A DNA stretch of 58,621 nt from Phycisphaerales bacterium (GTDB taxonomy: Bacteria > Planctomycetota > Phycisphaerae > Phycisphaerales > SM1A02), in the NCBI GenBank assembly GCA_022446885.1, contig JAKVBU010000022.1, positions 1-58,621 on the forward strand, written 5' to 3'. The notes under the pieces are model-generated. The model did no database searches. It saw only the letters and a list, made by a program, of their open reading frames with translations, and had not been told where the DNA came from. Shown here in pieces: positions 2,680 through 29,771 of this stretch. The position numbers were made by a program, and so were the translations under genes. The stretch's first letter is position 1. Every line of letters starts with the position of its first letter.

Positions 2680-2755
2680 CCGGCAAAGAGCAGCAGATTC
2701 CAAGACGTTCATCGCACCATGGACATGGTGATACCCCAACCACCCGGCATGGTGG

Positions 2756-3505
2756 TCAGCCTCCAAAGAGCTGCCGGTGCAGGGGGGCCACGACCTGCGG
2801 AATCACCCGCTCTTCGCTCAGGCGCTCTGCCCATCCGGCCAGTGACCCAAAGACCTCGTCGAATTGATCCAGCGAGGTGAATGGGCCGCGACGACGAACT
2901 GTGAGATACACGCTGACGGGCGTGTCCACACGAGCCTCCACCTGCCCTTGGGGCCGCGTTCGTATCTCGATGACGGCACATGACGCTGGATCGCCAGCCA
3001 GCCTGAAGGCCAACATGGGCTGGACATCGACCAGTTCATCGCCGTCAGTCACCAGGCCTGCCAGTGGCGAGGTGTCGAGGAACGTGTCAAAGACCGCTTC
3101 GTCTCGATTACCGCCAACTGGCAGGTCGAAGCCGAAGACCAGATCGATCGACTCCACGTCGAGGGGCGTGATACTCAGGTAGTAGGGCGCATTGCGGAGT
3201 ACGACTCGATGCAGGTGATAAGGCGCCGCAAGGTCCAGTGGATTGACCATGCCGCTGCGAACGCTCGTGCGCTGCAGTGACAACCACGCCCCGTGACGCT
3301 CATCTCCTTCCGTCTCCAATGCAAACTCATCGGCGTAGCGGCGTAGCGATGTCAGCGCTGGGCACTCACGGCGGACTCGATCGAACAGATCGAGGACTGC
3401 CTCTCGCCGAGAGGGCAAGTCCATGGTCAGCCCCAACCGCTGATTGACGTAGACATCGCTGCACAAGGCGGCGGCGCCCTCAATGACGGGTCCCACGTGG
3501 GTCAT
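2756..3505 (-). CDS. Conserved-looking protein of unknown function (249 aa)
   Basis: No family recognised. The start at 3505 gives a 4-nt ATGA overlap with the stop of the DUF418 gene, so it is very probably translated coupled to it. The upstream extension of this frame to 3826 lies inside that gene and is not credible. The protein is soluble, with no signal peptide or membrane span. It has short acidic strands (ESIDLVFGFDLPVGG) and a run of Arg/Thr beta-like segments (PVSVYLTVRRRGPF). It is the last gene of the sucC-HAD-DUF418 transcription unit and converges on the oxidoreductase gene with a 76-base gap, which holds a weak CACCAT/ATGGTG hairpin at 2715-2730. Confidence 0.72.
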   Translation of the reverse strand: MTHVGPVIEGAAALCSDVYVNQRLGLTMDLPSRREAVLDLFDRVRRECPALTSLRRYADEFALETEGDERHGAWLSLQRTSVRSGMVNPLDLAAPYHLHRVVLRNAPYYLSITPLDVESIDLVFGFDLPVGGNRDEAVFDTFLDTSPLAGLVTDGDELVDVQPMLAFRLAGDPASCAVIEIRTRPQGQVEARVDTPVSVYLTVRRRGPFTSLDQFDEVFGSLAGWAERLSEERVIPQVVAPLHRQLFGG

Positions 3506-4767: not shown

Positions 4768-5411
4768 GCCATCACGGTACCCGTATCAGACAGATCATCG
4801 AGCAACAGATCAGGTTGTCCACACGCCAGCGTGTCCCTCGAACAGACACCTGTCGCTACCGCAATGACCCGGCACCCGCATGCCCTGGCGCAGCTGATGT
4901 CGTGCAACGTATCCCCGATGATCACCGTCTGCCCCGGCACGCTGTTGGTACATCGCTGCATGGCAATGTGAGGCAAGTGGTTACGGCTTGGCCCATCTTC
5001 GGCCCATGCCTGCACCGCAAAGCGGCTTGGGTCGATTCCAGCCGCCCGAAGTTTCAACTGCCCGCTGCCGGAGAAGTTTCCCGTCAGCAACCCGAGCGTC
5101 CAACCAATTCTCGCCTCGATTGCATCAAGCAGCCCAGAGACGCCTGGCAATAGTTCGACCCGGTGATCGCTCTGGAGCAGGTGGGCCAAGTGCCGCTCGT
5201 AGGTTTGCCGGAGGACGGCCAACTTGTCGATCGCCACATCGAGCCGTTTGAAGGCCTCGGCGATGATCTGCCCGTCGAGGCGGCCACCGACCTCAATACC
5301 TTCGAGCGAGAAGTGCTCGTGAATGCAGGCACGCCCCGCTGATGTGAGCGCTTGGACACCCGCACGCATCGATGACAGCAGCGTGCCGTCGATGTCGAAG
5401 AGCAAGAGCAC
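4743..5411 (-). CDS. HAD-family hydrolase, phosphoglycolate phosphatase-like
   Basis: A 222-residue haloacid dehalogenase phosphatase. Motif I is FDIDGT, with the nucleophile Asp6 and acid/base Asp8. Motif II is the Thr in LLTGN, and motif IV is the GDTLHD pair. A helical cap lies between motifs I and II, as in the PGPase/beta-phosphoglucomutase subgroup. The start is GTG, two bases downstream of the sucC stop, so it is probably translated from the sucC message. It overlaps the DUF418 gene by 25 nt. The substrate is not predictable; phosphoglycolate is one option. Confidence 0.85.
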   Translation of the reverse strand: MLLLFDIDGTLLSSMRAGVQALTSAGRACIHEHFSLEGIEVGGRLDGQIIAEAFKRLDVAIDKLAVLRQTYERHLAHLLQSDHRVELLPGVSGLLDAIEARIGWTLGLLTGNFSGSGQLKLRAAGIDPSRFAVQAWAEDGPSRNHLPHIAMQRCTNSVPGQTVIIGDTLHDISCARACGCRVIAVATGVCSRDTLACGQPDLLLDDLSDTGTVMAWLERMSA

Positions 5412-5412
5412 C

Positions 5413-6609
5413 TCAGCCGACAGCTGCGCACACCTTGGCGGCCGCGTCTTCCAGGTCGGTGGCGGTTCGCATCGTGGGCAGGCGCTCTGAGGCCTCTTCC
5501 AGAATCACGCGAGCGGCCTCGACGTTCGTCCCCTCCAGTCGAACGACCAGCGGCACTTCGAAGCCGACTTCTTCAGCAGCCGCGACAATGGCACGGGCGA
5601 TCCGATCGCATTGCATGATGCCACCAAAGATGTTCACCAGGACACCCTTGACCGTGTCCTCGGACAAGATGATCCTGAACGCCTCGGTCACCGCTTCCTG
5701 ACTGGCGTCACCACCCACATCGAGGAAGTTGGCCGGCTCACCACCATGCAACTTGATGATGTCCATGGTGCTCATGGCCAATCCGGCGCCGTTGACCAGA
5801 CAGCCGATGTCTCCCTCGAGCGCCACAAAAGACAAGCCGGCCTCCTTCGCCCGCATCTCATCGGGGTCTTCCTCAGTGGGATCAAAGCAACTGGCGATGT
5901 CCTTCTGCCGAAACAGTGCGTTGTCATCGAAATTGAACTTGGCGTCGATAGCCAGCACCTGCCCGTCGGGATGCGACTCGTCTGCTGGCGTGATGATCAG
6001 CGGGTTGATCTCCGCCAGCGATGCGTCTGAAGACTCAAACACCTTGGCCAACTGCATGCAGACAGCCGTGAATTGGCGTACTTGCCGCCCACGCAGGCCC
6101 AGCGTGAAGGCCAGCGACGTTGCCTGCCAGGGCCGCAGCCCGTCCAGCGGGTGCAGAGGAACGGTATGAATCGCCTCGGGGCGAGCCTCGGCCACCTGCT
6201 CGATTTCAACACCCCCTTCGGCAGAGGCGATCAACGTGTTGGTGCGTCGCATTCGATCTGTGGTGATGGCCAGATAGAGCTCTCGCTCGATATCCACGCC
6301 CTCGGCGATCAACAGCCGCGTCACTTCCAGCCCCTCGGGCGGGGTCTGGGGCGACACCATCTTGTTGCCGAGCATGAACGTCGCGGCGTCGGTGACCTCC
6401 TCGGTGGAACTCACGACCTTCACAAACCCGGCCTTGCCGCGGCCGCCGGCATGCACCTGCGCCTTCACGACCACGATGCTCGCCCCCTGCTGGAACAACT
6501 CACCGGCAACACGCGTTGCTTCTTCAACGCTCGTGACCATCGCCCCGCCGGGGACTGGCACACCGCCACGGGCCAGAAGCGATCGGGCCTGGTATTCGTG
6601 AATCTTCAT
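5413..6609 (-). CDS. sucC: Succinate-CoA ligase, beta subunit
   Basis: Beta subunit of succinyl-CoA synthetase, the substrate-level phosphorylation step of the TCA cycle; 398 residues, the usual length. It begins with the family's MKIHEYQARSLL. It has an ATP-grasp domain with VHAGGRGKAG (about 52-61) and, later, the CoA/phosphohistidine region INIFGGI-like (VNIFGGIMQCD). The ATG at 6609 is chosen over the ATG at 6627 because it starts exactly at the family N-terminus and has AGAAGAG just upstream. sucD, normally adjacent, is absent. Instead the gene leads an operon with a HAD phosphatase, a DUF418 protein and an unknown protein. Confidence 0.96.
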   Translation of the reverse strand: MKIHEYQARSLLARGGVPVPGGAMVTSVEEATRVAGELFQQGASIVVVKAQVHAGGRGKAGFVKVVSSTEEVTDAATFMLGNKMVSPQTPPEGLEVTRLLIAEGVDIERELYLAITTDRMRRTNTLIASAEGGVEIEQVAEARPEAIHTVPLHPLDGLRPWQATSLAFTLGLRGRQVRQFTAVCMQLAKVFESSDASLAEINPLIITPADESHPDGQVLAIDAKFNFDDNALFRQKDIASCFDPTEEDPDEMRAKEAGLSFVALEGDIGCLVNGAGLAMSTMDIIKLHGGEPANFLDVGGDASQEAVTEAFRIILSEDTVKGVLVNIFGGIMQCDRIARAIVAAAEEVGFEVPLVVRLEGTNVEAARVILEEASERLPTMRTATDLEDAAAKVCAAVG

Positions 6610-6729
6610 CTCTTCTGATGCTCCCAAGCGGGTTCGAGGGCCCTGGACGGGCCGTGTTTGAAGCGGGGCATCCTAGCAGCCTCGTGGCCACTGGCGACGC
6701 TGAACTCCGGCCCCTAGCATCTGCCTCCC

Positions 6730-7290
6730 ATGGCACGAACACCCTCGACGATGGTTCCGCTGGGCACCCCAATGCCCGAGTTCACATTGCCTGACGCCAG
6801 TGGTCAAACGCACACGGCGCAACAGGTCTGCGGCGATCGTGGCACGCTGGTCATCTTCATGTGCAATCACTGTCCGTTTGTCGTGCACATCGCAGACATG
6901 CTGGGCTCGCTTGCATCGCGGTACATGCCTCAAGGCATCGGCGTGGTTGGCATCAACAGCAATGACATCGAGGCCTATCCTCAGGATGGCCCCGAGGCCA
7001 TGATCGAATTCGCCCGGACGCATGATCTGAAATTCCCATATCTGCTGGATGCCTCACAGGAGGTCGCCAGGGCCTTTGATGCGGCATGCACACCAGACTT
7101 CTTCCTGTATGCACAATCACGCAGATTGGTGTATCGTGGCCAATTGGATGACGCACGGCCGGGCTCGGACGCTCCGGTCAGCGGCCGTGATTTGATCGCC
7201 GCTATGGATGCGGTACTTGAGGGAACCCCCGTCCCCCATGAGCAGGTGCCATCGTTGGGATGCAACATCAAGTGGAAAGCGGCCGACTGA
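6730..7290 (+). CDS. Thioredoxin-like / AhpC-TSA family redox protein
   Basis: A cytoplasmic thioredoxin-fold protein of 186 residues, with no signal peptide. It has the CNHCPF motif (Cys45 and Cys48), a family-typical IGVVGINSND strand, and CTPDFFLYA carrying the cis-Pro. This matches the 'thioredoxin family protein' group related to ResA/AhpC, in which the CxxC pair acts as a dithiol reductant or sensor. It is divergent from sucC with a 120-base shared upstream region. A TAGCAT box at 6715-6720 may be its -10. Confidence 0.85.
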   Translation: MARTPSTMVPLGTPMPEFTLPDASGQTHTAQQVCGDRGTLVIFMCNHCPFVVHIADMLGSLASRYMPQGIGVVGINSNDIEAYPQDGPEAMIEFARTHDLKFPYLLDASQEVARAFDAACTPDFFLYAQSRRLVYRGQLDDARPGSDAPVSGRDLIAAMDAVLEGTPVPHEQVPSLGCNIKWKAAD

Positions 7291-7327
7291 TGTCGGTGTA
7301 CCTGACGCAGGACAGAGCAACAGATTC

Positions 7328-7792
7328 ATGGCAGCAAAGTCAAAGACTGCAAAGACAAGTTCCAAGACTTCCCGTAACGGCAAAGTAAAAGTAATCAAGC
7401 GATACCCCACCGCCAACGACCGCACGGAGAGTGTGGCTCTTTGGCACGACTCCTCACTGCTGCGTAGGTTGTACGAGGAAGAAGGCAAGAGTCAGGGCGA
7501 GATCGCTCAAGAACTGGGCTGCTCGCTGGTCACCGTCAACAAGGCATTCAAGAAGGCCGGCATCAAGGCCAAGCGTGGGCGCCGCCCCACTGACCATCTG
7601 GCCAAGCATGGCCGCCCAGTGAACGCTCCCCGCATCGCTGGAGGCCGACCACGCCGTCGCGGCACGCCCGACCTGCGAGGCCTTTCGGTGCGAGAGCGGG
7701 TCAACGAACTCGCTGACATGATGGACCGACTCGGGCCCCAAGGCCGCGACGCTGTCCGCCAGGATCTGCACGATCTGATCGACCGCCTCTGA
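7328..7792 (+). CDS. Small helix-turn-helix DNA-binding protein (154 aa)
   Basis: A basic protein with a Lys/Ser/Thr-rich N-terminal tail. A helix-turn-helix spans about residues 46-77 (RRLYEEEGKSQGEIAQELGC, then SLVTVNKAFKKAGI). A second Arg-rich linker follows (GGRPRRRGTPDLRG), then an acidic C-terminal helix (VRERVNELADMMDRLGPQG). The HTH resembles those of sigma-70 region 4 or Mor/resolvase proteins, but no catalytic domain is present. The start at 7328 is taken because the coding character begins at MAAKSK. An in-frame extension to 7208 would overlap the thioredoxin gene. The function is inferred only as a transcription or nucleoid factor. Confidence 0.75.
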   Translation: MAAKSKTAKTSSKTSRNGKVKVIKRYPTANDRTESVALWHDSSLLRRLYEEEGKSQGEIAQELGCSLVTVNKAFKKAGIKAKRGRRPTDHLAKHGRPVNAPRIAGGRPRRRGTPDLRGLSVRERVNELADMMDRLGPQGRDAVRQDLHDLIDRL

Positions 7793-7814
7793 ACCTGTAC
7801 CGGTCTCAATAGAC

Positions 7815-7865
7815 GGGCAGGCTTCATCGAAAGGGCTGGCTTCATCAAAAGGGCAGGCTTTACCC
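7815..7865. repeat. Imperfect 18-bp tandem repeat (2.8 copies)
   Basis: Copies start at 7815, 7833 and 7851 with consensus GGGCAGGCTTCATCAAAA. Copies 1 and 2 differ at two positions, and copy 3 decays after GGGCAGGCTTTACC. It lies between the convergent HTH and small membrane protein genes. Confidence 0.8.
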
Positions 7866-7891
7866 ACCCGGGCTGTTGGTGCGCTTTGGCT

Positions 7892-8071
7892 TCAGCCTCT
7901 GCGCCCCCAGATGAGCCAGAGCACGCCAGTCACCAGCAAGGTCAGCCCAATGCTGCCCAAGACGTCGATGTGCACATGCACACCGGCCAGCCAGAAAATC
8001 AGATTGAGGGCCAACAGAATGCCGACGAAGACCACTAGCCGAATTGCGAGGGAGTTGGTGCGGTCAGCCAT
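7892..8071 (-). CDS. 59-residue membrane protein
   Basis: A short gene with two predicted transmembrane helices, roughly residues 10-30 (LAIRLVVFVGILLALNLIFW) and 38-55 (LGSIGLTLLVTGVLWLIW), and a short His-containing loop between them. An ideal AGGAGG Shine-Dalgarno ends 7 bases before the ATG. It ends in a basic GRRG tail, consistent with a cytoplasmic C-terminus. It is the last gene of the operon 10460>7892, 31 bases after yjbQ. The family is not recognised; it resembles small DUF5668/LiaF-type or phage-shock-type two-helix proteins only in shape. Confidence 0.8.
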   Translation of the reverse strand: MADRTNSLAIRLVVFVGILLALNLIFWLAGVHVHIDVLGSIGLTLLVTGVLWLIWGRRG

Positions 8072-8102
8072 GTCGAGCCTCCTGGGGATTCAACAAGAGA
8101 GA

Positions 8103-8519
8103 TCAGTTTGCTTCGTGGATCAACGTGACGATGAGTCGCCGCTGGTGCCCCCGGCGACGATGCTCACACAGGTAGACGCCCTGCCAGGTGCCCAGCGCCA
8201 GCGACCCACCGGACACGGGCAGAACAACCGACGTACCGGTGAGCATGGCCCGAACATGCGAGGGCATGTCGTCTGGCCCTTCATGTGTGTGGGTCCAGGC
8301 GGGATCGTCTTCGGCCGCCGCCCGGCTCAACCACTGCTCCAGATCATGCCGGGCTGAGGGATCGGCGTTCTCCTGAACAGTGAGGCTCGCAGACGTGTGC
8401 AGCACATGGACGTGGCACAGACCGTCTCGAACTGGCCCGGCTCGCACGATGTCGTCGATCGATCGAGTGATCTCAACGAAGCCCTGCCCGGCAGTGTCGA
8501 TGGTGAGCGTGGCGCTCAC
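8103..8519 (-). CDS. YjbQ-family (UPF0047) protein
   Basis: A 138-residue member of the YjbQ/UPF0047 family, for which secondary thiamine-phosphate synthase activity has been reported in E. coli YjbQ. Visible family marks are HTSASLTVQENADP, the WTHTHEGPDDMPSHVRAML segment with its conserved histidines, and the C-terminal signature LGTWQGVYLCEHR. The GTG start overlaps the lipoprotein gene's stop (GTGA), so the two are probably translationally coupled. Confidence 0.9.
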   Translation of the reverse strand: MSATLTIDTAGQGFVEITRSIDDIVRAGPVRDGLCHVHVLHTSASLTVQENADPSARHDLEQWLSRAAAEDDPAWTHTHEGPDDMPSHVRAMLTGTSVVLPVSGGSLALGTWQGVYLCEHRRRGHQRRLIVTLIHEAN

Positions 8520-8737
8520 CCCCCAGCCCCCTCCAACGCAGATCGACGAGCCGCCTCTCGATCGCGTTGATACTGCTCAAGTGTGCGATCGACCTCCCGC
8601 TGAGCGTGCTCGACGTCGGAGAGCCCGACTTGACGTCGCTGGGGCTGCACCTTCTGCATGGGCTCGAGTTGGCAACTCACGCTGCTCGCCACGAGCACGA
8701 TCAGCACGCCTGCGGCGACCACCTCACGCGGGCGCAT
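8516..8737 (-). CDS. Small putative lipoprotein (73 aa)
   Basis: The N-terminus MRPREVVAAGVLIVLVASS is followed by a Cys within SVSC. This is a signal peptide with a weak lipobox, Ser rather than Leu at -3. The mature part is short, charged and probably a single helix (VEHAQREVDRTLEQYQRDR). The start at 8737 is preferred over 8833 because it begins exactly at the signal sequence and overlaps the upstream gene by only 14 nt. It overlaps yjbQ by 4 nt. The function is unknown; its position suggests an envelope partner of the haem/LRR membrane protein. Confidence 0.68.
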   Translation of the reverse strand: MRPREVVAAGVLIVLVASSVSCQLEPMQKVQPQRRQVGLSDVEHAQREVDRTLEQYQRDREAARRSALEGAGG

Positions 8738-10460
8738 CTGCAGCCGTCTCCTCAGAGGCCTCTGGCTTCGTTGCCGAACCATGTACCGCCAATGCAGGCC
8801 GCTTGGCTCGAAGCGCGTTGAGGCCGGCCTCACTCATACCGGTGTTTCCCAGATAGACGGCTCGCAGGCCTTCCAAGGCTGCGATGTCATCCACGCAGGC
8901 GTCGGTGAGCTTTGTATTCCAGCAATTGAGCACCTCAAGCCGCTGCAGGGGCAGCAGCGCCTTGACACCCGCGTCGGAAACTGCGGTCTGATCGAGCCGC
9001 AGTGAACGCAGCTGGGTGCAGGTGGCTACCGGTGTCATCGCAGCATCTGTGATCGCCGTTCCTGCCAGCGAGCACGACCAAAGGTTGCCCGCCAAGGCGC
9101 TCAGACCGGCGCAGGTGGCATCGTCGGCCGGCGGCGTGAGCCTACTCATGTCGACTTGTAGCCAGGGAGAACCCTTGTAGAGCGCCCCTGCCCGAACACC
9201 ACGCTCACGCAGACGGGCAAGCTGGGCATCTTCCGCCGCCTGATCGAAGGGGCCCGGCAGCACCTTGGATGGATCGCTGCGGGCGCCGCTATCAGGCGAT
9301 GGTGACGAGCCCCCCTGAGGCTCGCCCGAACCAGCGTTTGGTGGCTCCACCTCGATTGTCGGCGGCTCTGCGCCATTTGGCCCTGTAGCCCCGGCGGCGA
9401 TCCAAGCGCGGATCCGCTCGACCTGCGCCTCGTTGAGCATGTTGCCTTCGCCCTCCGGAGGCATGGGGTCATCCTCATCCGTGATGCGTTCCAGCAGCAA
9501 GCTCGACTTGGGCTCACCTGGCGCCACCGACCAGAACTGAGCGTCATCTGCAAAGAGCGCCGACCAAGGCAGAATCTGCAATCCGCCTTTCTGCTTGTCA
9601 GGTCCATGGCATCGGACGCACATGGCATCGAGCAACCCTTCGACCGTGTCCCACCCGGCGTGGGCGATCGCAGGCGTGATGGCCTCAGACACATCGGTCG
9701 ATCCCGGCTCGCTCGAGGCCTCAACCTCGGAGGCATCAGCACCAGTCTGACCAGACTGCCCATCGCCAGAGGTCGAACCATCGACACTGGTCTGAGGTGT
9801 CGCCTCGGTGCCTTTGGCCTGCTCGGTCGCTTCAGTGCTCGTGTCGCCTGCAGACCCATCTCCCGTCTCATCGGCGGGCTCGGCGCTGCCACCATCCTGC
9901 GGTGATGGCTGTTGAGGTGACGATGCGTCAGTCGTGGCACTTGAAGACGCAGCATCCGCCTTGGCCTGAATTGCCTCCTGCGCTCTGTAGATGGGGTTGA
10001 GCAAGAAGTCATCCCCCCACTTCATCGATGCCCCCAGATGGCCTGAGACCGCGATCAAACCGGCCGCCAGTAAGAGCGCAAGCAAACGGGCTGGCAGGGC
10101 CCAATGCCAGCGAGGCGTGCGTCGCATCAAGTCGAAGATGGCCGCCAAGACCAGGGCTCCCAAGGCCGAAACAGACAGCCATCGGTGCCAGTCCATTTGC
10201 GGGTAGGACTCAGATGTGTACTTGAGCGCCCCCCCTTTGAGCGTCTCCCCGTCGGCAAACACCCAGCCGGTCCAGACGGCCAATGCGGTGAAGAACAGCC
10301 CCCCCCAGAGGCAAAATTGGGTCGTCGGAGAGGGCTGATCGCCCTTTTTCAGGCACCAGCGGACGAGGGCGACAACCGCCCCTAGCAGCACCAGAGCGAT
10401 GGGAAAGTGCAGGATCAAGGGGTGCAGGCGGCCAAAGACCTGCCACCAGGCCTCGGTCAT
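8724..10460 (-). CDS. DUF2231 membrane / planctomycete-type cytochrome c / LRR fusion protein
   Basis: A 578-residue three-part protein. The N-terminal third has about four transmembrane segments in DUF2231 style, starting with RLHPLILHFPIALVLLGAVV. A long Ser/Thr/Ala/Glu-rich linker follows. Next comes a cytochrome-c-like domain with a single haem site CVRCHGP at about 281-286 and a DDPMPPEGEGNM segment, typical of planctomycete 'PSCyt1' domains, which also contain the recurring GGLQ-I run after the CxxCH. The C-terminal third has leucine-rich-repeat character (LRSLRLDQTAVSDAGVKAL, then LEVLNCWNTKLTDACV). The start at 10460 (MTEAWW) is chosen because the first membrane helix follows directly; ATG 10496 and TTG 10505 are alternatives. 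Haem export to the periplasm is inferred. Confidence 0.85.
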   Translation of the reverse strand: MTEAWWQVFGRLHPLILHFPIALVLLGAVVALVRWCLKKGDQPSPTTQFCLWGGLFFTALAVWTGWVFADGETLKGGALKYTSESYPQMDWHRWLSVSALGALVLAAIFDLMRRTPRWHWALPARLLALLLAAGLIAVSGHLGASMKWGDDFLLNPIYRAQEAIQAKADAASSSATTDASSPQQPSPQDGGSAEPADETGDGSAGDTSTEATEQAKGTEATPQTSVDGSTSGDGQSGQTGADASEVEASSEPGSTDVSEAITPAIAHAGWDTVEGLLDAMCVRCHGPDKQKGGLQILPWSALFADDAQFWSVAPGEPKSSLLLERITDEDDPMPPEGEGNMLNEAQVERIRAWIAAGATGPNGAEPPTIEVEPPNAGSGEPQGGSSPSPDSGARSDPSKVLPGPFDQAAEDAQLARLRERGVRAGALYKGSPWLQVDMSRLTPPADDATCAGLSALAGNLWSCSLAGTAITDAAMTPVATCTQLRSLRLDQTAVSDAGVKALLPLQRLEVLNCWNTKLTDACVDDIAALEGLRAVYLGNTGMSEAGLNALRAKRPALAVHGSATKPEASEETAADAPA

Positions 10461-16576: not shown

Positions 16577-16649
16577 AGCCACCCAGCGGACTCGAACCGC
16601 TGACCTGAGCTTTACGAAAGCTCCGCTCTACCAACTGAGCTAGGGTGGC
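16577..16649 (-). tRNA. tRNA-Thr (CGT)
   Basis: A complete cloverleaf on the minus strand: acceptor GCCACCC/GGGTGGC, D-arm AGCTCAGTTGGTAGAGC, anticodon stem GAGCT/AGCTC around loop TTCGTAA (anticodon CGT, reading ACG), and T-loop GGTTCGAGTCC. The discriminator is T and CCA is not encoded. Confidence 0.96.
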
Positions 16650-16702: not shown

Positions 16703-18829
16703 TCAGGGCGACGCAATCGACGCGGTCGATGCCAGCGATCCTTGCAGCCGCGCAGCTGCCTCGGCTTCAGCGCCGGAGGCATGCTTGATCAACTCCATCA
16801 GGTCGGCACGCTGCCGCCGCGTTGTGTGGTCGCCATAAAGACGCACAGACGAAGCAGCCAGATCCAGCAGGCGGTCGCGATCCTCACCCGCATCGGGCGA
16901 GAGAGACGCATTGATCAGCGCCCGCTGGGCCTCAGCCGTATCGATGGCTGCGAGCACCTCACCGGCCAGCAACTTCTGCCCGCCGTCACCATGCTGAACG
17001 AGTTGGCTCAAGGGCGCCAATGCATCGCCAGCATGCAGACCATCAGGGGCCACGGAAGCCAGATCACGCAGCGCCGACAGGGCCCGTACGGCGTAGATCT
17101 TGCGCTGCGCCCCGGTCAGTGCAGACTGCTCTGAAATGTCAGCCAGAACATGTCCCGCAGCATCCGCCGAAGCACTCTGCTGCATCAGGGTCAGGTCTGG
17201 CACCTGCGACAGGGCGCCCTGAGCTCGATCGATGTCCACTTGCGGCATCACCAGAAGAATGGGCATGCCAAGCGATTCCAGCAGCGGCGCGGCGTGCTCG
17301 GCACCATTGGAGTGGGGCGGCCCCATTTCGATCCAGAGCAGATCGAGCGAGCTGCCCTCGGGCAGCGTTGACTCCAGCCCGTTTCCTACAGCAACAACGC
17401 GATAGCCAGCCTGCTCGAGCGCCTCGACACCGCGATGACGAGCGGCATCCTCGGCTGCGATCACGGCGGCCAGTTTGCCCGCACCACCCAACGCGGCCCG
17501 ACCCAGCAGCGGCACAACCCTCTCTGATCCGGGGAAGCCGGTCTTTGGCATTGACGAAGCAGCAACGATGGCCGCCTCAAATCGCACGCGGGGGTCGTCA
17601 AAGAGCAATGCCTCAAGGAGTGGCTCCCTGTCGCCACCCTCGAGCAGATCGTTGCTGCCCGAGACACGGCTCATGGCGTCAAGCGCATCGAGCGCCAACT
17701 CGGCATCTTGCTGATCCATCGACAAAGCCAACACATCACGAGCCACATCGGGGCCGTGCACCGTCGCATAGAAGGCTGGTGACCTATCGAGTTCGGGCAG
17801 TACGGTGGAGAGGTCTTCCTCCCCCATCCGATGGGCCAAACGCAGATTCGCGGCCACGAAGGCTGCCAAGGCATCTCGATCTTCGGGCGCCAACGCACGG
17901 GCTGCGAAGGCATGTCGAGCCGCCATGACCGGGTGATAGAGACGATCCGGCACGGTTGTCGTCACCAACCCGGTGGTTGGATCCCACCGCCAGACATTCT
18001 GCTTGGACACGAGCTCGCCCTCGACGGTCCGCACCGGAATGGGCTGGGCACGAAGGTGCTCAAATTCCGCAAGATAGCGCCGCGCTTGACGTGTGTGTAG
18101 GGCGGCCAGGTCAACATCGGAACTCGACCCAAGGCGACCCAGTGCATCAGCGGCGGCCTGACGAGAGATGCTCGGTGCAGAATCGTCTTGAGCCAACGTG
18201 GCTAGTGCCGGTTGGGCATGGGGGTAGCCAATACGAGCAAGCGCGTCGGTCACAACAACCTGCTGCGGGGCCGGCAGGTGCGGCAGCGCCGTCGTCAGCG
18301 GATCTACGGCCTCACGGCCGATCGCGGGCATCAACTGAATGATCTCAACTCGAATTGCGGAGGGCAGTTCCGGGCTGTTGAAGGCGCGGACAATTGCGGG
18401 CACTGCATGCTCGCCAGCAGCGAGCAGGCGTCTGGCACCCAGTTGCCGCTCACGCCGAGTTCCACCCAACATCGGAATCGCTTCTTCGATGCGGCCCTCG
18501 TCGCGAGCCTGCTCCAGCCGGCCCATCTCGACACGCTTCTCGATCTGCCCCGACACCTGCTCAAGAGCGGGTACTTCACGGCCCCATCGATAGGCTCGGA
18601 TGAGCCGGTCACGCAAAGCGGGGTCATCATCGACGATCTCAGCGAGTTCCTGATCGGAAACACCACTGTCCAACAATGCATCTCCGCTGGCTTGGGCCAG
18701 TTCCACGTTGGCCGTCAGGCTGTAGTGCACGAAATCCTGGAGCAGTTGCACCGGATCTGCAGGGCGAGCGCTGAAGGCCAGGCAGGTCGTGATGATGGCG
18801 GCGAGTCCGAGGCGTGGGACGAGTCGCAT
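16703..18829 (-). CDS. Secreted HEAT-repeat protein (708 aa)
   Basis: An exported alpha-helical-repeat protein. The signal peptide (MRLVPRLGLAAIITTCLAF) ends near ARPA. The body consists of HEAT-like helical pairs, clearest at about residues 125-240 (LGARRLLAAGEHAVPAIVRA, AIRVEIIQLMPAIGREAVDP and VVVTDALARIGYPHAQPALA) and again beyond residue 400. Around residues 460-560 is a different segment (GYRVVAVGNGLESTLPEG, then SLDLLWIEM, then IPILLV-like) that resembles a receiver/Rossmann alpha-beta fold. No catalytic motif is visible. It is probably a periplasmic scaffold, and is divergent from the riboswitch operon. Confidence 0.78.
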   Translation of the reverse strand: MRLVPRLGLAAIITTCLAFSARPADPVQLLQDFVHYSLTANVELAQASGDALLDSGVSDQELAEIVDDDPALRDRLIRAYRWGREVPALEQVSGQIEKRVEMGRLEQARDEGRIEEAIPMLGGTRRERQLGARRLLAAGEHAVPAIVRAFNSPELPSAIRVEIIQLMPAIGREAVDPLTTALPHLPAPQQVVVTDALARIGYPHAQPALATLAQDDSAPSISRQAAADALGRLGSSSDVDLAALHTRQARRYLAEFEHLRAQPIPVRTVEGELVSKQNVWRWDPTTGLVTTTVPDRLYHPVMAARHAFAARALAPEDRDALAAFVAANLRLAHRMGEEDLSTVLPELDRSPAFYATVHGPDVARDVLALSMDQQDAELALDALDAMSRVSGSNDLLEGGDREPLLEALLFDDPRVRFEAAIVAASSMPKTGFPGSERVVPLLGRAALGGAGKLAAVIAAEDAARHRGVEALEQAGYRVVAVGNGLESTLPEGSSLDLLWIEMGPPHSNGAEHAAPLLESLGMPILLVMPQVDIDRAQGALSQVPDLTLMQQSASADAAGHVLADISEQSALTGAQRKIYAVRALSALRDLASVAPDGLHAGDALAPLSQLVQHGDGGQKLLAGEVLAAIDTAEAQRALINASLSPDAGEDRDRLLDLAASSVRLYGDHTTRRQRADLMELIKHASGAEAEAAARLQGSLASTASIASP

Positions 18830-18945
18830 TCGAGGAAGTCTCCGATGACGAACCCCCTAGGGCTCGTCTGTGGTTCTGTTCAATCATCAAACTCTATCCG
18901 ACCCCCACACAACTGAGCGTCATATGGGACGGAAGAATTGGTCAC

Positions 18946-18951
18946 TATACT
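18946..18951 (+). promoter_or_regulatory. Candidate -10 box for the riboswitch transcript
   Basis: TATACT ends 5-7 bases before the first paired base of the riboswitch aptamer, where a -10 element is expected. No good -35 hexamer is seen at 16-18 bases upstream. Confidence 0.5.
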
Positions 18952-18955
18952 CCCC

Positions 18956-19140
18956 GTGGCACAGGTTCGGCTCGCCCAAGCGGGCCGTGGCAACAGGGAA
19001 GTGCGGTGAAATGCCGCCACGGACGCGCCGCCGTGAAGGGCCATGCCTCCCCCGGGAGGCCGTGTGGACCAAGGCCACTGTCGATCAGCGATCGATGGGA
19101 AGGCCCCACTCGACCCGAGTCGGAAGACCTGCCCGTGCCC
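18956..19140 (+). promoter_or_regulatory. Cobalamin (B12) riboswitch
   Basis: Aptamer of the cobalamin class, which senses adenosyl- or other cobalamins and usually represses downstream expression when B12 is plentiful. The conserved core is present in order: CAGGGAAGTGCGGTGAAAT at about 18993, the GCCGCCACGG/CCGCCGTGA segment (19013-19035), GCCACTG (19074-19080), GGGAAGGC (19097-19104), and GGAAGACCTGCC (19122-19133), the near-invariant B12-box end. P1 forms from GGCAC-AGGT at 18958-18966 with ACCT-GCCC-GTGCC at 19127-19139. A variable hairpin (GCCTCC/GGGAGGC) sits in the middle. Starting at the aptamer, 132 bases of structured leader follow before the first gene. Confidence 0.93.
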
Positions 19141-19271
19141 GAGTGCTCTGTACCCGCGCGATTTCGGGTCGGCGGCAGCCATCGCGGCACGCACGTGTGG
19201 CAGGTGGCCGTCCGATCCCCATCGCAATCAGCGGGTGCGCTCATCTGGTCCCGCCCCTACTGGAGGCTCGC
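19141..19271 (+). promoter_or_regulatory. Leader / probable expression platform after the riboswitch
   Basis: A 131-base GC-rich stretch between the aptamer and the first ATG, including GGAGG at 19262-19266, 5 bases before the start codon. No T-tract terminator is visible, so control by occluding the ribosome site seems more likely than termination. This is inference; the alternative pairing was not computed. Confidence 0.5.
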
Positions 19272-20138
19272 ATGCTCTGCTCATGGATTCTGATGGCCGC
19301 TCTGATCAACCCTTGGGCTGATCAGGTGGTGTCATTCAACCCAGGCTCGGGCGGATCGCCCGGCTACGACGATCCCCTCACCTGCCTCGGGCCACCTGAG
19401 CGCTTCTCAGGCGAGGCCGGCGGCATGCCAGGGGTGGTGACACCATTCGCCCCGGCGTGGGGGCTAGACGAACTCGTCTCGCTGGGTCAGGGCGGCTCCA
19501 TCGTGCTGGCCTTTGACACGCCCGTCACCGACGACCCGCTCAACCCCTTTGGCATCGACCTGATCATCTTCGGCAATACAGGCCTGCTCGACGGGAGCTA
19601 CCCAGAAGGCCTTTGCAGCGGGTTCTTCGGCGCAGATGGCGGCCAGGTCGAAGTGAGTCCGGACCGCGTCAACTGGACGCTACTCAACATCGAGGCCGAC
19701 GCCCCCTGGCCCACCATCGGCTGGATCGACTCGGGCCCCTACGACACGGCGCCGGGGACGCATCCGGCTGACCCAGTTCGGCCGGTGGATCCGGCAGTAA
19801 AAGCCTCCTCGATGATCGGACAACCGCATGAGGCCATCATCGATCTCTACGGGGGCTCCGCCGGTGGGACCGGCGTCGATCTGGGCGCGGTGGGCCTCGA
19901 CGCCATCAGCTTTGTCCGCATCAGCGTGGATGACGCTGCCTTTCTTGCGCCTGAACTCGATGCCCTCGTAGACGTGGGCCGCTGGGGAGATGCCACCGGA
20001 GATCACCTGGTCGATGTGAACGACCTGCTGACGGTGGTTTCCGCCTGGGGGCAAACCGGCGGCTTGCTGGCCGATCGCACCTTTGATGGAGTCGTAGACG
20101 TTGCCGACCTGCTCACCGTGCTGGACTGCTGGAACTGA
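19272..20138 (+). CDS. B12-riboswitch-controlled secreted surface protein with dockerin-like C-terminus
   Basis: A 288-residue exported protein. The ATG at 19272 is chosen for its GGAGG site; the ORF upstream of it is riboswitch. The signal peptide is short (MLCSWILMAALINPWA). The main domain (about 20-230) is beta-rich: DQVVSFNPGSGG, then LGQGGSIVLAFDTPV, DLIIFGNTGL and GGQVEVSPDRVNWTLL. This pattern of 'GGSIVLAF...FGN...VEVS..' resembles secreted proteins found in cobalamin regulons of other bacteria, from memory and not searched. Two dockerin-like repeats close it (GDATGDHLVDVNDLL and DGVVDVADLLTVLDCWN). Control by the riboswitch implies a role in acquiring or sparing B12; the mechanism is unknown. 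It touches the next gene by TGATG. Confidence 0.82.
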   Translation: MLCSWILMAALINPWADQVVSFNPGSGGSPGYDDPLTCLGPPERFSGEAGGMPGVVTPFAPAWGLDELVSLGQGGSIVLAFDTPVTDDPLNPFGIDLIIFGNTGLLDGSYPEGLCSGFFGADGGQVEVSPDRVNWTLLNIEADAPWPTIGWIDSGPYDTAPGTHPADPVRPVDPAVKASSMIGQPHEAIIDLYGGSAGGTGVDLGAVGLDAISFVRISVDDAAFLAPELDALVDVGRWGDATGDHLVDVNDLLTVVSAWGQTGGLLADRTFDGVVDVADLLTVLDCWN

Positions 20139-20953
20139 TGTCGTCACGCGGCCTCACGCTTGTTGAACTGCTGGTGGTCATCGCCGTCATCTGCACGTTG
20201 GCCGCAACCATGATGCCACTGGTGTCTCGGGCGCAAGACTCGGCCCTGCGAGCACAATGCCTGGCGAATCTCCGCCAACTGACCCACACCGCAGCAGCAT
20301 GGGCCACCGAACATGAGGGCGCCTTCCCACCGGGGCTCTTGCATGGCACCCAACGCGACTGCCTCAGCGGTGACGTGCGGGCATGGGACTGGCACCGACT
20401 CCCCAACGGCACAGTGCGCCCGGGCATCTTGTGGGCCCGTGCGGCCGGGCGTGATGCAGGGGATGTGATGCAGTGCCCCACCTGCCGCCATGTTTCCCCG
20501 GCATGGAGCGGCGATCCTGTGACGGGGTACAACTACAACGTCGCGTTCATCGCCGCGGAGGCGAGGCCACCCACGGCATCTGACAAGGGGCTGGGAGCCC
20601 AAGACCTGATCACGGCCAAGGCCAATCTCGATGGTGAGACGCATCTGACCCTGGCTCAGTGCCGCCGAGGCTCCCACACGGCCCTGTTTGGAACGGGCGG
20701 GCGTCGTGGCGGAACCAACAAGTTCATGCGATCGCCGGTGAATGCCGGGCCGGTCTACGACATCGCCTATGCCGGGGCTCAGGCCTTTCCCGATGGCTCC
20801 AACGTGGCCCGAGTCGATGGATCGGTAGGTACGGTCCGTATCGCCAAGGCCGGCATCCACGCCGATGCCCTGCCCGATTGGATCGTCGATCAACTCGATC
20901 ACCCCCGAAACGGCTTCCTTTCGGACGACGCGTCGGCCTATGACCCGCGATGA
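20138..20953 (+). CDS. Type II pseudopilin-like protein (prepilin-cleaved)
   Basis: A 271-residue protein with a classic prepilin N-terminus: RG followed by LTLVELLVVIAVI, the cleavage site after Gly with Glu at +5 of the mature protein, then one long hydrophobic helix. The globular part has planctomycete-pseudopilin features (AQCLANLRQL early, NFAV-like NYNVAF in the middle, and a late VARVDGSVGTVR resembling the H-X9-DG motif). It would be processed by a prepilin peptidase and inserted in a type II secretion or pilus-like assembly. It starts within the stop of the riboswitch-led surface protein gene, so it should share B12 control. Confidence 0.85.
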   Translation: MSSRGLTLVELLVVIAVICTLAATMMPLVSRAQDSALRAQCLANLRQLTHTAAAWATEHEGAFPPGLLHGTQRDCLSGDVRAWDWHRLPNGTVRPGILWARAAGRDAGDVMQCPTCRHVSPAWSGDPVTGYNYNVAFIAAEARPPTASDKGLGAQDLITAKANLDGETHLTLAQCRRGSHTALFGTGGRRGGTNKFMRSPVNAGPVYDIAYAGAQAFPDGSNVARVDGSVGTVRIAKAGIHADALPDWIVDQLDHPRNGFLSDDASAYDPR

Positions 20954-21189
20954 TGTCGCCCATGCGACGTCGGGTCATGGTCGAGAAGTGCATCTGCCAC
21001 GATGTGCCTTTCACACGCATCGTCGAGTGGGCGCAGGGGCGTGACACACCTACCGAGGCCCAAGTGCGTGAGGCATTCGGGTGCGGCTCATCCTGTGGCA
21101 TGTGCCGCAACTACATTCGACGCGTGCTTGAGACAGGGCTCACGAGCATTGAGTTGATGGTGCCCGACCATGAAGAGAAGACGCCGTGA
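20950..21189 (+). CDS. Bfd-like [2Fe-2S] ferredoxin-domain protein
   Basis: A 79-residue protein matching the BFD/(2Fe-2S)-binding domain: CIC at residues 14 and 16, then SCGMC at 49 and 52, giving C-x-C-x32-C-x2-C, the Bfd spacing; Cys45 is an extra cysteine. The GCGSSCGMCRNYIRRVL helix is typical. Its partner is unknown; Bfd proteins transfer electrons to bacterioferritin or act in Fe-S enzymes. The ATG at 20950 overlaps the pseudopilin stop; a second ATG at 20953 is an alternative. It overlaps moeA by GTGA. Confidence 0.85.
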   Translation: MMSPMRRRVMVEKCICHDVPFTRIVEWAQGRDTPTEAQVREAFGCGSSCGMCRNYIRRVLETGLTSIELMVPDHEEKTP

Positions 21190-22358
21190 TCACCCTTGAC
21201 GAGTTGCTCCAGATCGCATCCGACCTCGCCGGGGCACCGCAAGGGGCTGAGTCGTGTGATCTCAAGATGGCCGCTGATCGAGTGCTCGCCCAGGCCCTTA
21301 GGGCTGACCGCGATCTTCCCCCCTTTGATCGCGCCGCAATGGACGGGTTCGCACTTCGCCATGACGAAGCAGGTCACGCCATGCCCTGCATCGGACAGAT
21401 TGACGCCGGCGCAGACGAGACGCCGGAGATTCCCCCAGGTGCGTGCGTGGGCATCGCGACCGGGGCCCGCGTGCCCGGCGGTCTCGACACAATCGTCCAG
21501 CACGAGTGGACCAGTCGCAGCGGCAACTTGATCACGCTTGATCGCGTGCCTCATCGAGGCGCAAACATCCACCCTCGCGGTGCAGACGCTCGCAAGGGCG
21601 ATGTGCTCGCAGAGGCGGGTAGCAGCGTAGACGCCGTCACAACGGGCCTGGCCGGAGCCTGCGGGCACACCCAACTGCAGGTTGTCACTCGCCCTCGCAT
21701 GGCCCTGCTCACCAGTGGCGACGAGGTTGTCCCGATCGATCAATCCCCCCAGCCGCACCAGATTCGAAACAGCAACGCCCCGATGCTGCAGCGTCTGGCC
21801 CGCCGGCTCGGATTTGAGGTTGCTGCAGCAGACCACCTGCCCGACGAAGCAGATGCTGTCCTCACGCCCATCGCTGATCAAATCGCACAGGTGGATGTGA
21901 TCGTGACCACGGGCGGTATCAGCGCCGGCGTGCGTGACGTGCTGCCTCAGGCATTCGATGATCTGGGCGTCATCTGGACCTGCATTGGTGCCCTCGTGCA
22001 ACCTGGCAAGCCCACACGCCTTGGCCGGGTCGGCTCCACGGCCGTGGTCTGCTTGCCTGGCAACCCCATCTCGGCCCTCGTCATGGGCACCATCCTGCTG
22101 GGGCGACTGTCTGCCGCCCTGAGCAACTCGCCCGCGCCAAGTTGGCAACCGATGCCACTGGGCTGTAACGCCACCCCCAACCCGCGTCGGACGCTGATTC
22201 GCCCGTGCAGCTTCATCGACGGAGCGATTCACATTCCCCAGTGGCACGGCTCGGGTGATCTCGCCCATGCGGCGGGCACACACGGGCTGGTTCGACTGCC
22301 CATGCAGGATGCCCCCCTTGCAATTGGCACTCACCTGCCGGTGCTGCCCTGGCCATGA
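21186..22358 (+). CDS. moeA: Molybdopterin molybdotransferase
   Basis: Inserts molybdate into adenylylated molybdopterin to complete the molybdenum cofactor. At 390 residues it has the normal length. Family marks: PPFDRAAMDGFAL near the N-terminus, IATGARVPGGLDTIVQ, then RPRMALLTSGDEVV, the TTGGISAGVRDVLPQ loop of the MPT-binding domain, and LPGNPISALV. The start is GTG, overlapping the Bfd-like gene, and the end overlaps moaD by ATGA. Strong coupling makes it part of the riboswitch-led run of genes, which is unusual for a Moco gene. Confidence 0.94.
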   Translation: MITLDELLQIASDLAGAPQGAESCDLKMAADRVLAQALRADRDLPPFDRAAMDGFALRHDEAGHAMPCIGQIDAGADETPEIPPGACVGIATGARVPGGLDTIVQHEWTSRSGNLITLDRVPHRGANIHPRGADARKGDVLAEAGSSVDAVTTGLAGACGHTQLQVVTRPRMALLTSGDEVVPIDQSPQPHQIRNSNAPMLQRLARRLGFEVAAADHLPDEADAVLTPIADQIAQVDVIVTTGGISAGVRDVLPQAFDDLGVIWTCIGALVQPGKPTRLGRVGSTAVVCLPGNPISALVMGTILLGRLSAALSNSPAPSWQPMPLGCNATPNPRRTLIRPCSFIDGAIHIPQWHGSGDLAHAAGTHGLVRLPMQDAPLAIGTHLPVLPWP

Positions 22359-22606
22359 ACGCACCCGTCACAGTCTCGATCACATGCCTGGGTCCACTCA
22401 AGCAGACTGTGTGCGATACCCCGCTCACGATCACCTGCCGCCCGCTCGTACGATCGCTCATTGATGAACTTGCCGGGCGCTATGCGACGATCGAGCAATT
22501 GAGAGGACGCATCGCGGTTGCCCATGCAAGCGGCTACCTGCAGATGGATGACCTACTGCACGAGGGCATGGCTTTGCTGCTGGTTCCGCCTGTCAGTGGC
22601 GGCTAG
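22355..22606 (+). CDS. moaD: MoaD/ThiS-family sulfur carrier
   Basis: A small ubiquitin-fold sulfur carrier for molybdopterin synthase. It has 83 residues and the diagnostic C-terminal Gly-Gly (PPVSGG-stop), where the thiocarboxylate forms. The N-terminal strand (TVSITCLGPLKQ) and the LIDELAGRYATIEQLRGR helix fit MoaD better than ThiS, and moeA next door supports that. The stop codon lies inside the stop of mutL on the other strand: both share CTAG at 22603-22606. No MoaE gene lies in the window. Confidence 0.86.
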   Translation: MNAPVTVSITCLGPLKQTVCDTPLTITCRPLVRSLIDELAGRYATIEQLRGRIAVAHASGYLQMDDLLHEGMALLLVPPVSGG

Positions 22607-24357
22607 GACCGACCAAATCGACGCTCGAGTTCGTCCAACGTCAATCGCATCGTGGTGGGCCGCCCGTGTGGGCAATTCGAAGCGCGTTCAATGGCGTCGC
22701 GGGCTTCGAGCAAGTCTTGCAACTCACGCTGGGTGAGTCGATCGCCCGCCTTGATCGCGGCCTTGCACGCCATCATGTCAATGACATCACGAAGCGCGGT
22801 CTCGGTGTCGGCCTCGTGCAGTGCAGCGGCGCTCTGGGACAGATCCTCGATGAAGCGGGCAAGATCAACGCCCCGCTCGATCAACAGCACGGGCGCCGCG
22901 TGCAGGGCCAATTGCCCCGGGCCCATCGGGGTCAGGTCCACCCCCAACCGCTGAATCAGATCGCGGAGCTTTTCGAGCCCCTCGATTGCGGTGGAATCTA
23001 GATCGACGACGATCGGCACCATGAGTCTCTGAGAAGGCAGATCGCCAGACTGCAATCGCTCCAGCAGCCGCTCGAACATCACCCGCTCATGCAGGGCATG
23101 CTGATCAACGATGAGAATGCCTGACTCATCTTCAACTAGCAACCAGGCGTCATGCACCTGCATGAACCGCAGAGTTGCCGACACGCCTTCGATCGCATCC
23201 GAGTCGTCACCAGCAACGTCCCTCCCGTCAAGTGCGATTGGCTGGGATCGACGTTGCTCAAGCCGGGGCATGGACACGCTCTGGGAAGACGATGCCGCGA
23301 GCCCCGAACCAAAGAGCGCTCGAGGCTCCTGAGGCACATTCGGACGCGGCGTCGGCAACGTGGGGATCAGGTCTCGGCCTTCCAGCGCCGCCTTGATGGC
23401 GTCTCGAACGACTACGAAGATCAGTCGTTCATCGCGCAGGCGCACCTCAGTCTTGGCCGGGTGCACATTGACATCTACTCTCGCAGGATCCACGCCCAGA
23501 AAGAGCGCCGCCACTGGTGATCGAGAGGGCTCGATCAACCCTCGGTAGGCCTCTCGCATCGCATGACGGATGGACCGATCGACAATTGGCCGCCCATTCA
23601 GACACACGATCTGATGCGTTGCGCCCGGGCGCGCGGTGTCGGGAGGGCCGATCAAGCCCGACAGCGTGACACCGTCGCGGTGGGACTCCACATCAATGAG
23701 CACATCTCCCAGCTCACGCCCCAGCAAGGCCACGCACCTGTCGCGCAACGTCTGCTCACCGGGCAACTCCAAAACGACCCGATCGTTCGACCGCAGAGTG
23801 AATCCCACGCTCGGGTGGGCTGCTGCCAGATCTCGCACGACACGCCGCACTCGAGTAGTTTCACCTCGAGGCGTTTTCATGAATTTGCGGCGTGCCGGCA
23901 CCCGGGCGAACAGACCGCCGACTTCAACACATGTGCCCTCAGGGGCGCCGCATGGCTCCACCTGCCGCGTGTTGCCATGGTCCACCACCAACCGTCCCCC
24001 AGCGGGCGTCCCCGGCACACGGGATGTGATCTGCAGCCGGCTCACTGAGGCGATTGACGCCAGCGCCTCGCCCCGGAATCCCATGGTGGCGATGCCCTCC
24101 AGATCATCCACATCGACAACCTTGCTGGTGGCATGAGCCGACACGGCAAGCGGCAGTTCGTTTGGGGGAATCCCGTCACCGTTGTCTCGCACCTGCAGCA
24201 GATCCAGACCGCCCTCGATCAGGTCCACTTCGATTCGACTCGCTCCGGCATCGATCGCGTTCTCAATCAGCTCCTTGGCGACGCTCGCAGGCCTGTCAAC
24301 CACCTCGCCGGCAGCGATCTGATTGACGACATGCTCAGACAACTGGCGAATGGGCAT
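22603..24357 (-). CDS. mutL: DNA mismatch repair protein MutL (endonuclease type)
   Basis: A 584-residue MutL. The GHKL ATPase half has the motifs ELIENAIDAGAS, DNGDGI and ATSKV / MGFRGEALASI. The dimerisation half contains DQHALHERVMFE, which fits the DQHA-x2-E-x4-E metal-binding motif of MutL proteins that nick DNA, together with ACKAA and CPHGRPT near the C-terminus. MutH-independent repair is therefore expected. The ATG at 24357 is chosen because the extension to 24501 lies inside nadE and MPIRQLSEHVVNQIAAGEVV is the family N-terminus. It overlaps nadE by one base (TGATG). Confidence 0.95.
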   Translation of the reverse strand: MPIRQLSEHVVNQIAAGEVVDRPASVAKELIENAIDAGASRIEVDLIEGGLDLLQVRDNGDGIPPNELPLAVSAHATSKVVDVDDLEGIATMGFRGEALASIASVSRLQITSRVPGTPAGGRLVVDHGNTRQVEPCGAPEGTCVEVGGLFARVPARRKFMKTPRGETTRVRRVVRDLAAAHPSVGFTLRSNDRVVLELPGEQTLRDRCVALLGRELGDVLIDVESHRDGVTLSGLIGPPDTARPGATHQIVCLNGRPIVDRSIRHAMREAYRGLIEPSRSPVAALFLGVDPARVDVNVHPAKTEVRLRDERLIFVVVRDAIKAALEGRDLIPTLPTPRPNVPQEPRALFGSGLAASSSQSVSMPRLEQRRSQPIALDGRDVAGDDSDAIEGVSATLRFMQVHDAWLLVEDESGILIVDQHALHERVMFERLLERLQSGDLPSQRLMVPIVVDLDSTAIEGLEKLRDLIQRLGVDLTPMGPGQLALHAAPVLLIERGVDLARFIEDLSQSAAALHEADTETALRDVIDMMACKAAIKAGDRLTQRELQDLLEARDAIERASNCPHGRPTTMRLTLDELERRFGRS

Positions 24358-28633: not shown

Positions 28634-28708
28634 GGCGACCGTAGCTCAGCTGGTCAGAGCACCTGGTTGTGGTCCAGGATGTCGCGGGTTCGAATCCCGT
28701 CGGTCGCC
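28634..28708 (+). tRNA. tRNA-His (GTG)
   Basis: The anticodon stem CCTGG/CCAGG encloses TTGTGGT (anticodon GTG). The acceptor pairs as GGCGACCG with CGGTCGCC, including the encoded extra G at -1 opposite C73, the identity element of tRNA-His. CCA is not encoded. Confidence 0.96.
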
Positions 28709-29698: not shown

Positions 29699-29771
29699 GG
29701 CGAGGTAGCTCAGTTGGTAGAGCACGGCATTGAAAATGCCGGTGTCCCCGGTTCAAGTCCGGGTCTCGCCA
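29699..29771 (+). tRNA. tRNA-Phe (GAA)
   Basis: The cloverleaf begins GGCGAGG, paired with TCTCGCC (one G-T pair). The anticodon stem CGGCA/TGCCG surrounds TTGAAAA, giving anticodon GAA. The T-arm is CCCGGTTCAAGTCCGGG. The discriminator is A and CCA is not encoded. Confidence 0.96.

Follow-up and report, generated by a model that had tools for sequence, protein, structure and literature searches.

The stretch of DNA analyzed here, referred to as the window, comprises positions 1 to 58,621 (58,621 nucleotides) of contig JAKVBU010000022.1 from a Phycisphaerales bacterium (assembly GCA_022446885.1, a draft genome of 2.87 Mb that is 97.26% complete), and we studied a cobalamin riboswitch on its forward strand together with the genes that follow it. 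The covariance model RF00174 gave a match of 66.1 bits there (gathering score, 31.5; E value of 3.9e-14 for the window), and the alignment spans the full model (positions 1 to 189 of 189), with the conserved core and a 3' box ending ...GGAAGACCUGCC. This bears out the complete B12 aptamer that the original prediction had read from the letters. Five open reading frames lie 3' of the aptamer and, as also predicted, are joined by short overlaps, successively of 1, 4, 4, and 4 nucleotides. The features of the locus are as follows:

18946 to 19150, + strand: cobalamin riboswitch aptamer (RF00174), from the covariance-model match
19151 to 19271, + strand: leader of 121 nucleotides between the aptamer and gene 1, with GGAGG shortly 5' of the ATG in the sequence
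19272 to 20138, + strand: gene 1, probable secreted surface protein, with a BtuH-like core (approximately residues 14 to 237) and a dockerin-type C terminus (approximately residues 239 to 287)
20138 to 20953, + strand: gene 2, pseudopilin of a family linked to B12 riboswitches, from TIGR02532, locus counts, and a structural model
20950 to 21189, + strand: gene 3, Bfd-like [2Fe-2S] protein, an optional member of the operon, with PF04324 just under the cut-off
21186 to 22358, + strand: gene 4, moeA, a variable neighbor, with MoeA_N and MoCF_biosynth above the cut-off
22355 to 22606, + strand: gene 5, moaD-like, a variable neighbor, with TIGR01682 at an E value of 5.9e-6, below the cut-off

The leader contains no terminator-like site according to a scan of positions 18700 to 22700, in which the sole such site fell inside gene 1 (19922 to 19938), with 1.6 expected by chance. 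This absence makes control of translation by the riboswitch more likely, in our view, than control of transcription; RNA folding of positions 18940 to 19300 was uninformative (z of -1.25). By analogy with its riboswitch class, low cobalamin would lead to the expression of genes 1 to 3.

We looked into the conservation of this arrangement. The riboswitch was found upstream of the gene 1 homologue in all 29 of the short loci and in 58 of the 60 chosen genomes (the 29 loci included), the exceptions being one genome without a match (G177) and one in which the gene sits at a contig end (G039). The distance between the two was within 370 nucleotides in 49/58 cases and 427 to 1568 nucleotides in the other 9, some of them with an intervening gene. 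Altogether, the 60 genomes yielded 67 riboswitch matches, 59 of which were located at a gene 1 homologue; four of the 67 scored below the cut-off, including one at gene 1 (G261, 27.3 bits, counted among the 58). The 60 genomes were hand-picked, mostly as best scoring, from the 171/298 that matched gene 1 (dockerin-only matches included), and the choice passed over some with better scores (for example, G189, G215, and G007); the 58/60 figures describe close and middling relatives of gene 1. Across the phylum, a profile of the gene 1 core matched 57 of 392 sampled genomes, with the strong matches in the class of the window.

A pseudopilin follows gene 1 in 57 of 59 loci, as counted with hidden Markov models (the 59 being the window plus 58 of 60 fetched loci, after L053 and L086, without a gene 1 call, were dropped), and matches to the same pilin models elsewhere in these neighborhoods amounted to 6 of 497 genes. 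The two loci without a pilin were L091, which lies at a contig end, and L093, which has a propeller gene. In a second set, made from the best 80 of 314 gene 1 relatives in genome contigs after removal of 4 short loci, 1 locus in which gene 1 was not called, and 7 loci already in the first set, the pilin was present in 65/68 loci (missing in L141, L163, and L210). The loci are related to one another, and these counts are not independent; besides, the genes come from our own gene caller, which misplaces some starts and failed near L292 and L294. With a regular expression for prepilins, the count falls to 38/59 loci, as diverged or mis-started proteins escape it. The surface protein and the pseudopilin are a conserved B12-riboswitch unit. 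The ferredoxin-like protein, which the original prediction had placed in a B12-responsive unit with the first two genes, is an optional member: a Bfd-like gene is present in 17/59 loci, and in the window the PF04324 match (E value of 3.5e-5; 24.5 bits, for a cut-off of 26) comes with the cysteines in place.

The family of the window represents a short form of the operon, composed of riboswitch, surface protein, pilin, and sometimes Bfd. A PQQ-type beta-propeller, absent from the operon of the window, is found before the pilin or alone in 30/59 loci, and a cob(I)alamin adenosyltransferase, of the PduO type by a family match for L083, stands between the riboswitch and gene 1 in L083 and L085. 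A role of the relatives' propeller as BtuG was not supported, since the one member tested matches PQQ_2 and PQQ_3/YfgL chains, of the PQQ/BamB type, and not BtuG. Several records titled Caulobacteraceae, Bacteroidia, or Limnohabitans (L136, L174, L175, and others) encode close gene 1 relatives, and their titles are probably wrong.

Gene 2 has a prepilin N terminus (TIGR02532, 21 bits for a cut-off of 16.3; PF07963, 21.0 bits for a cut-off of 21.2), and its structural model, with a mean predicted local distance difference test (pLDDT) score of 91.6, shows a long N-terminal helix at residues 8 to 58. The pairing of such a pilin with a B12 riboswitch extends beyond close relatives of gene 1. Cobalamin riboswitches, 22 in total, were found in 17 of 19 genomes of the class that lack a close gene 1 homologue. 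Fifteen of the 22, in 14 of the 17 genomes, are followed on the same strand by a pseudopilin no more than 4.5 kb downstream, the pilins of L294 and L305 resting on open frames only. The genes before these pilins include distant relatives of gene 1 (L293, L298, L299, L300, and L305), so that genomes classed as lacking a close homologue often carry distant ones, as well as DUF4465 proteins (L298, E value of 3.9e-55; L300, E value of 1.4e-51, the latter also matching PDB entry 9fct with an E value of 2.6e-29) and proteins of a PEP-CTERM family without a name. The gene caller placed no gene between a riboswitch and the pilin in three genomes (G005, G143, and G205). Because the pilin also lies downstream of these 15/22 riboswitches with varied surface proteins, we conclude that it is the most constant part of the unit and that the surface proteins are exchangeable.

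The same genomes offered several further observations. In L298 (G243; positions 2162 to 9598), two riboswitch units follow each other, each ending in its own pseudopilin, and together they contain gene 1 relatives, an unnamed PEP-CTERM protein, and a DUF4465 protein. A riboswitch precedes a TonB receptor in G143, G205, and G066 (in G066 from positions only); the only such receptor tested, that of L295, comes nearest to TIGR01779, a model of the B12 receptor (E value of 6.4e-86, below the cut-off). In L295 and L296 (G143 and G205), there are two adjacent riboswitches, one before a pseudopilin and the next before the TonB receptor, which is followed by genes resembling ExbB/ExbD by eye. The four remaining riboswitches, judged by eye, head cobalamin synthesis genes (L308 in G019, no other such case being noticed among the 22), a radical S-adenosylmethionine-like gene (L307), a PEP-CTERM protein (L306), and nothing clear (L301). 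The genome of the window itself contains exactly one other cobalamin riboswitch, on contig C15 (61180 to 61984; L003:6181-6985), heading a single 186-aa (amino acid) PEP-CTERM-like protein without a Pfam core family; we collected 14 members of its unnamed family, all behind riboswitches.

We analyzed the product of gene 1. The protein is probably secreted, as suggested by an N terminus that is hydrophobic by eye. Searches of Pfam and NCBIfam gave its dockerin-type end only (NF041540, E value of 0.0021; PF00404, E value of 0.13; both below the cut-off) and no Pfam family for the core; in the structural model, residues 233 to 288 align with the dockerin 2y3n_B (Z score of 8.9). Twenty-six diverse members of the gene 1 family share recurring end motifs only, PEP-CTERM in 9 and dockerin in 6, the remaining six families being matched weakly by one member each. 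The genome of the window (G000) contains 66 further matches to gene 1, most of them covering only approximately residues 230 to 288, and such a high frequency of dockerin-like ends suggests a common role in surface anchoring.

The AlphaFold2 model of gene 1 has a mean pLDDT of 92.4. Foldseek ranked the lectin domain of a glycosyltransferase and carbohydrate-binding modules highest, at poor TM-scores. A second look with VIA gave 8blw_B, residues 388 to 660 (BtuG1), as the top match, with a Z score of 12.4, 149 aligned residues, a root mean square deviation of 3.3, and 23% identity; the next row had a Z score of 10.5. Residues 388 to 660 correspond to the H domain of BtuG1, a homologue of BtuH2 (PMC10404256). 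As only VIA had put BtuG1 first, we sought a bridge in sequence and found it in the protein of L299, a riboswitch-pseudopilin locus from the same taxonomic order as the window. The gene 1 profile aligns to the L299 protein with an hhalign probability of 98.7 (E value of 2.3e-16), and this protein in turn matches BtuG1 (8blw, E value of 2.1e-14) and BtuH2 (7biz, E value of 1.6e-13). Furthermore, gene 1 has an FGN motif whose counterpart in BtuH2 is the GN that contains Asn399 (assuming an offset of 100 in the 7biz numbering), a residue reported to contact the phosphate of B12 (PMC8941943), and the aligned Asn, residue 102 of gene 1, is kept in 25/26 and 48/48 rows of the gene 1 family. On the strength of this predicted fold and these profile matches, we take gene 1 for a probable remote relative of the BtuH domain, which binds B12; this amends the original prediction, in which none of the genes was an obvious transporter or cobalamin enzyme. 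We infer that gene 1 binds B12 at the cell surface. An assignment of gene 1 to DUF4465 was rejected, with no match to PF14717 at an E value of 1; its distant relative in L298 gave no PDB match, and one weak match of a diverged member to a capsid protein was taken as chance.

B12 has a mass of approximately 1.36 kDa and is too large for ordinary porins, and its uptake by Gram-negative bacteria is taught as needing BtuB and TonB. Porins are said to pass molecules of up to approximately 600 Da (PMC5394234). We searched 26 genomes carrying the operon for the TonB plug (PF07715) and barrel (PF00593), and the same 19 of them, including that of the window and six single-contig genomes, gave no match to either model; as a control, among 14 control genomes, those of E. 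coli, Caulobacter, and Bacteroides gave matches. All 26 have a strong FecCD permease, B12-binding domains, and secretins (26/26 each), and the genome of the window encodes MetH, above the cut-off.

We propose that the locus is a B12-repressed operon for acquisition at the cell surface, in which capture by a surface protein is combined with a dedicated pseudopilin that does the work of BtuB, a reading to which we give a probability of about 0.68. When cobalamin is scarce, the riboswitch would permit the expression of genes 1 to 3. The gene 1 product would be exported and held at the surface by its dockerin-type end (often a PEP-CTERM end in its relatives), where its BtuH-like domain, as its fold and homology suggest, may bind cobamides. 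The pseudopilin would be assembled by the general pseudopilus or type IV pilus machinery and could carry the captured vitamin, or hand it on, at or through the outer membrane, as BtuB does elsewhere; we cast it as the stand-in for BtuB because it keeps the same place in the B12 regulon from genome to genome and because TonB receptors are missing. An inner-membrane ATP-binding cassette (ABC) transporter of the FecCD family, whose substrate would be the vitamin, would then import it, and the Bfd-like protein may give electrons to reduce the imported cob(III)alamin, which is the weakest step. Of the two roles first considered, uptake or sparing of B12, the locus looks like the former. Sparing is not supported: the five genes include no B12-independent isozyme, and a B12-dependent methionine synthase is encoded in the genome. 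In addition, the operon may belong to a TonB-independent importer of the pilus type, in which a B12-regulated pseudopilus bearing BtuH- or DUF4465-like binders would catch B12 outside the cell, bring it to the periplasm by way of a secretin, and replace BtuB across much of the class; we hold this idea as tentative and rather doubtful.

Several points weigh against our proposal. The link between gene 1 and BtuH depends on a predicted model and a single intermediate sequence, and PDB sequence searches with gene 1 and two profiles returned chance matches only, none to BtuH. The fold is of the widespread jelly-roll type, many carbohydrate-binding modules reaching Z scores of 9 to 10.5, and the authors of the BtuH study found modest fold similarities that they deemed unrelated to B12 binding (PMC8941943); following their judgment, the fold alone would not carry a claim about B12. 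In alignments read by eye, Trp577 of BtuH2 is kept neither in gene 1 nor in the L299 protein. The structure match of gene 2 is weak, the best being the type IV pilin PilA4 (Z score of 5.3), and the pilin models behind the count of 57/59 were trained on the pilins of 14 of the 59 loci, which were found by construction. On the side of transport, 7/26 operon genomes do have a TonB receptor, located on a different contig from the riboswitch or more than 1 Mb away, and absence from a draft genome can be due to incompleteness. TonB receptors are found in 7/26 genomes with the operon versus 11/19 genomes without a close gene 1 homologue, a difference that is not significant (Fisher p of 0.064), and we rejected a general rule that the operon and TonB receptors exclude each other. 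The FecCD permease and ATPase of the window's genome match the F420-0, BtuC/BtuD, and siderophore/heme models about equally, all below the cut-off, and no BtuF gene was seen beside this permease. Finally, outer-membrane B12 receptors are stated to be present for several bins jointly, among them a Phycisphaera bin (PMC7029141).

Type II system pseudopilins help to export proteins, and the dockerin or PEP-CTERM ends of the surface proteins, together with secretins in 26/26 genomes, would fit an arrangement in which the surface protein captures B12, the pseudopilin only exports, anchors, or displays it, and an unrecognized channel or porin passes the vitamin. We consider this unlikely: in G005, G143, and G205, the pseudopilin comes immediately after the riboswitch, no other gene having been called in between, and other anchored genes in the fetched neighborhoods are not followed by a pilin (0/6, a small number), nor is there a pilin-like frame in the 7 short dockerin loci of the window's genome, where the numbers are again small and the motif used undercounts pilins. 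An operon made of a pilin and a surface protein could also belong to a regulon of attachment or behavior, in which low B12 induces adhesins and pili and so lets the cell attach to algae, cyanobacteria, or other producers of B12. One Phycisphaera population, from a culture of Synechococcus, was described as lacking MetE and B12 synthesis genes and as having abundant type IV pilus proteins (PMC7029141), which would agree with such a regulon. The B12-binding-like gene 1, and the DUF4465 protein or adenosyltransferase in related operons, fit acquisition better, and we judge attachment improbable. That the surface protein, pilin, ferredoxin, and molybdenum cofactor (Moco) genes make up one B12-responsive system, for which the overlapping frames, the lack of a promoter-like site before moeA, and a same-strand moeA in 31/127 loci could speak, is very improbable, given that gene 1 and the pilin remain paired, whereas moeA is inverted in 11/127 loci and absent from the next genes in 67/127.

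The remaining 18 of these 127 loci, counted after removal of the 7 duplicates, lie at contig ends and allowed no call. The comparison of gene order in relatives, which had been suggested as a check, showed that it is the first genes, and not moeA, that the riboswitch accompanies. We conclude that moeA and moaD are variable neighbors and passengers and that moeA is probably outside the B12 unit; of their suggested membership, what stands is that they may share the transcript of the unit in some species. No promoter that would isolate moeA was seen in the scan of positions 18700 to 22700 (0 found, 0.4 expected), which is weak evidence. Elsewhere in the window, we noted a secretin domain (PF00263, 79.9 bits; 57298 to 57855, - strand) distant from the operon, an RNase P class A RNA gene (1276 to 1670, + strand), and tRNA genes at 16577 to 16649 (- strand), 28635 to 28708 (+ strand), and 29699 to 29771 (+ strand).

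The operon is composed of known kinds of parts in an arrangement that we have not found described: in the literature on cobalamin riboswitches, planctomycete B12 uptake or TonB, and pseudopilins, from which subscription papers were largely missing, we found no description of a riboswitch-surface protein-pseudopilin operon. It looks like an undescribed way of acquiring B12. It would offer a concrete and testable answer to how such planctomycetes, often without a detectable TonB receptor, obtain the vitamin, would give a regulated function to one of the many planctomycete pseudopilins, and would place a BtuH-type domain well beyond its reported range, the gut Bacteroidetes and three Firmicutes. 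For pilins in nutrient uptake, a Legionella pilin reportedly enhances iron acquisition, to go by the title of the paper (PMC13170364). Pili-like fibers of planctomycetes bind dextran, and a role in the uptake of macromolecules has been speculated (PMC5394234).

Like BtuH and the H domain of BtuG1 from Bacteroides (PMC8941943 and PMC10404256), gene 1 encodes a surface protein behind a cobalamin riboswitch, with a predicted H-domain fold, the phosphate-contacting Asn, and a sequence link through L299. Unlike these proteins, the gene 1 family appears from its sequences to be anchored not as lipoproteins but by dockerin or PEP-CTERM ends. Gene 1 does not match these proteins directly in sequence, and its operon contains no btuB and continues with a pseudopilin, in a group where no TonB receptor was found in 19/26 genomes. 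The locus shares with BtuB-BtuG uptake a riboswitch-controlled surface step and the presence of a FecCD-family inner-membrane permease, whereas the TonB plug and barrel are missing from 19/26 genomes and the propeller of 30/59 loci is of the PQQ/BamB type (one tested). In Bacteroides thetaiotaomicron, BtuJ1, BtuJ2, BtuK1, and BtuG/H are reported to bind B12, most of their operons having predicted riboswitches (PMC12751083). Eight distantly related DUF4465 members are also reported to bind B12, a protein from the planctomycete Mucisphaera being among those chosen for the binding tests (PMC13398666). DUF4465 proteins, the family of BtuJ, occur in the riboswitch-pseudopilin operons of the relatives L298 and L300, while gene 1 of the window has no DUF4465 match. 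Gene 2, finally, has the prepilin N terminus of the pseudopilins of type II secretion and type IV pili; unlike the known pseudopilins and the planctomycete fibers, it is tied to a B12 riboswitch.

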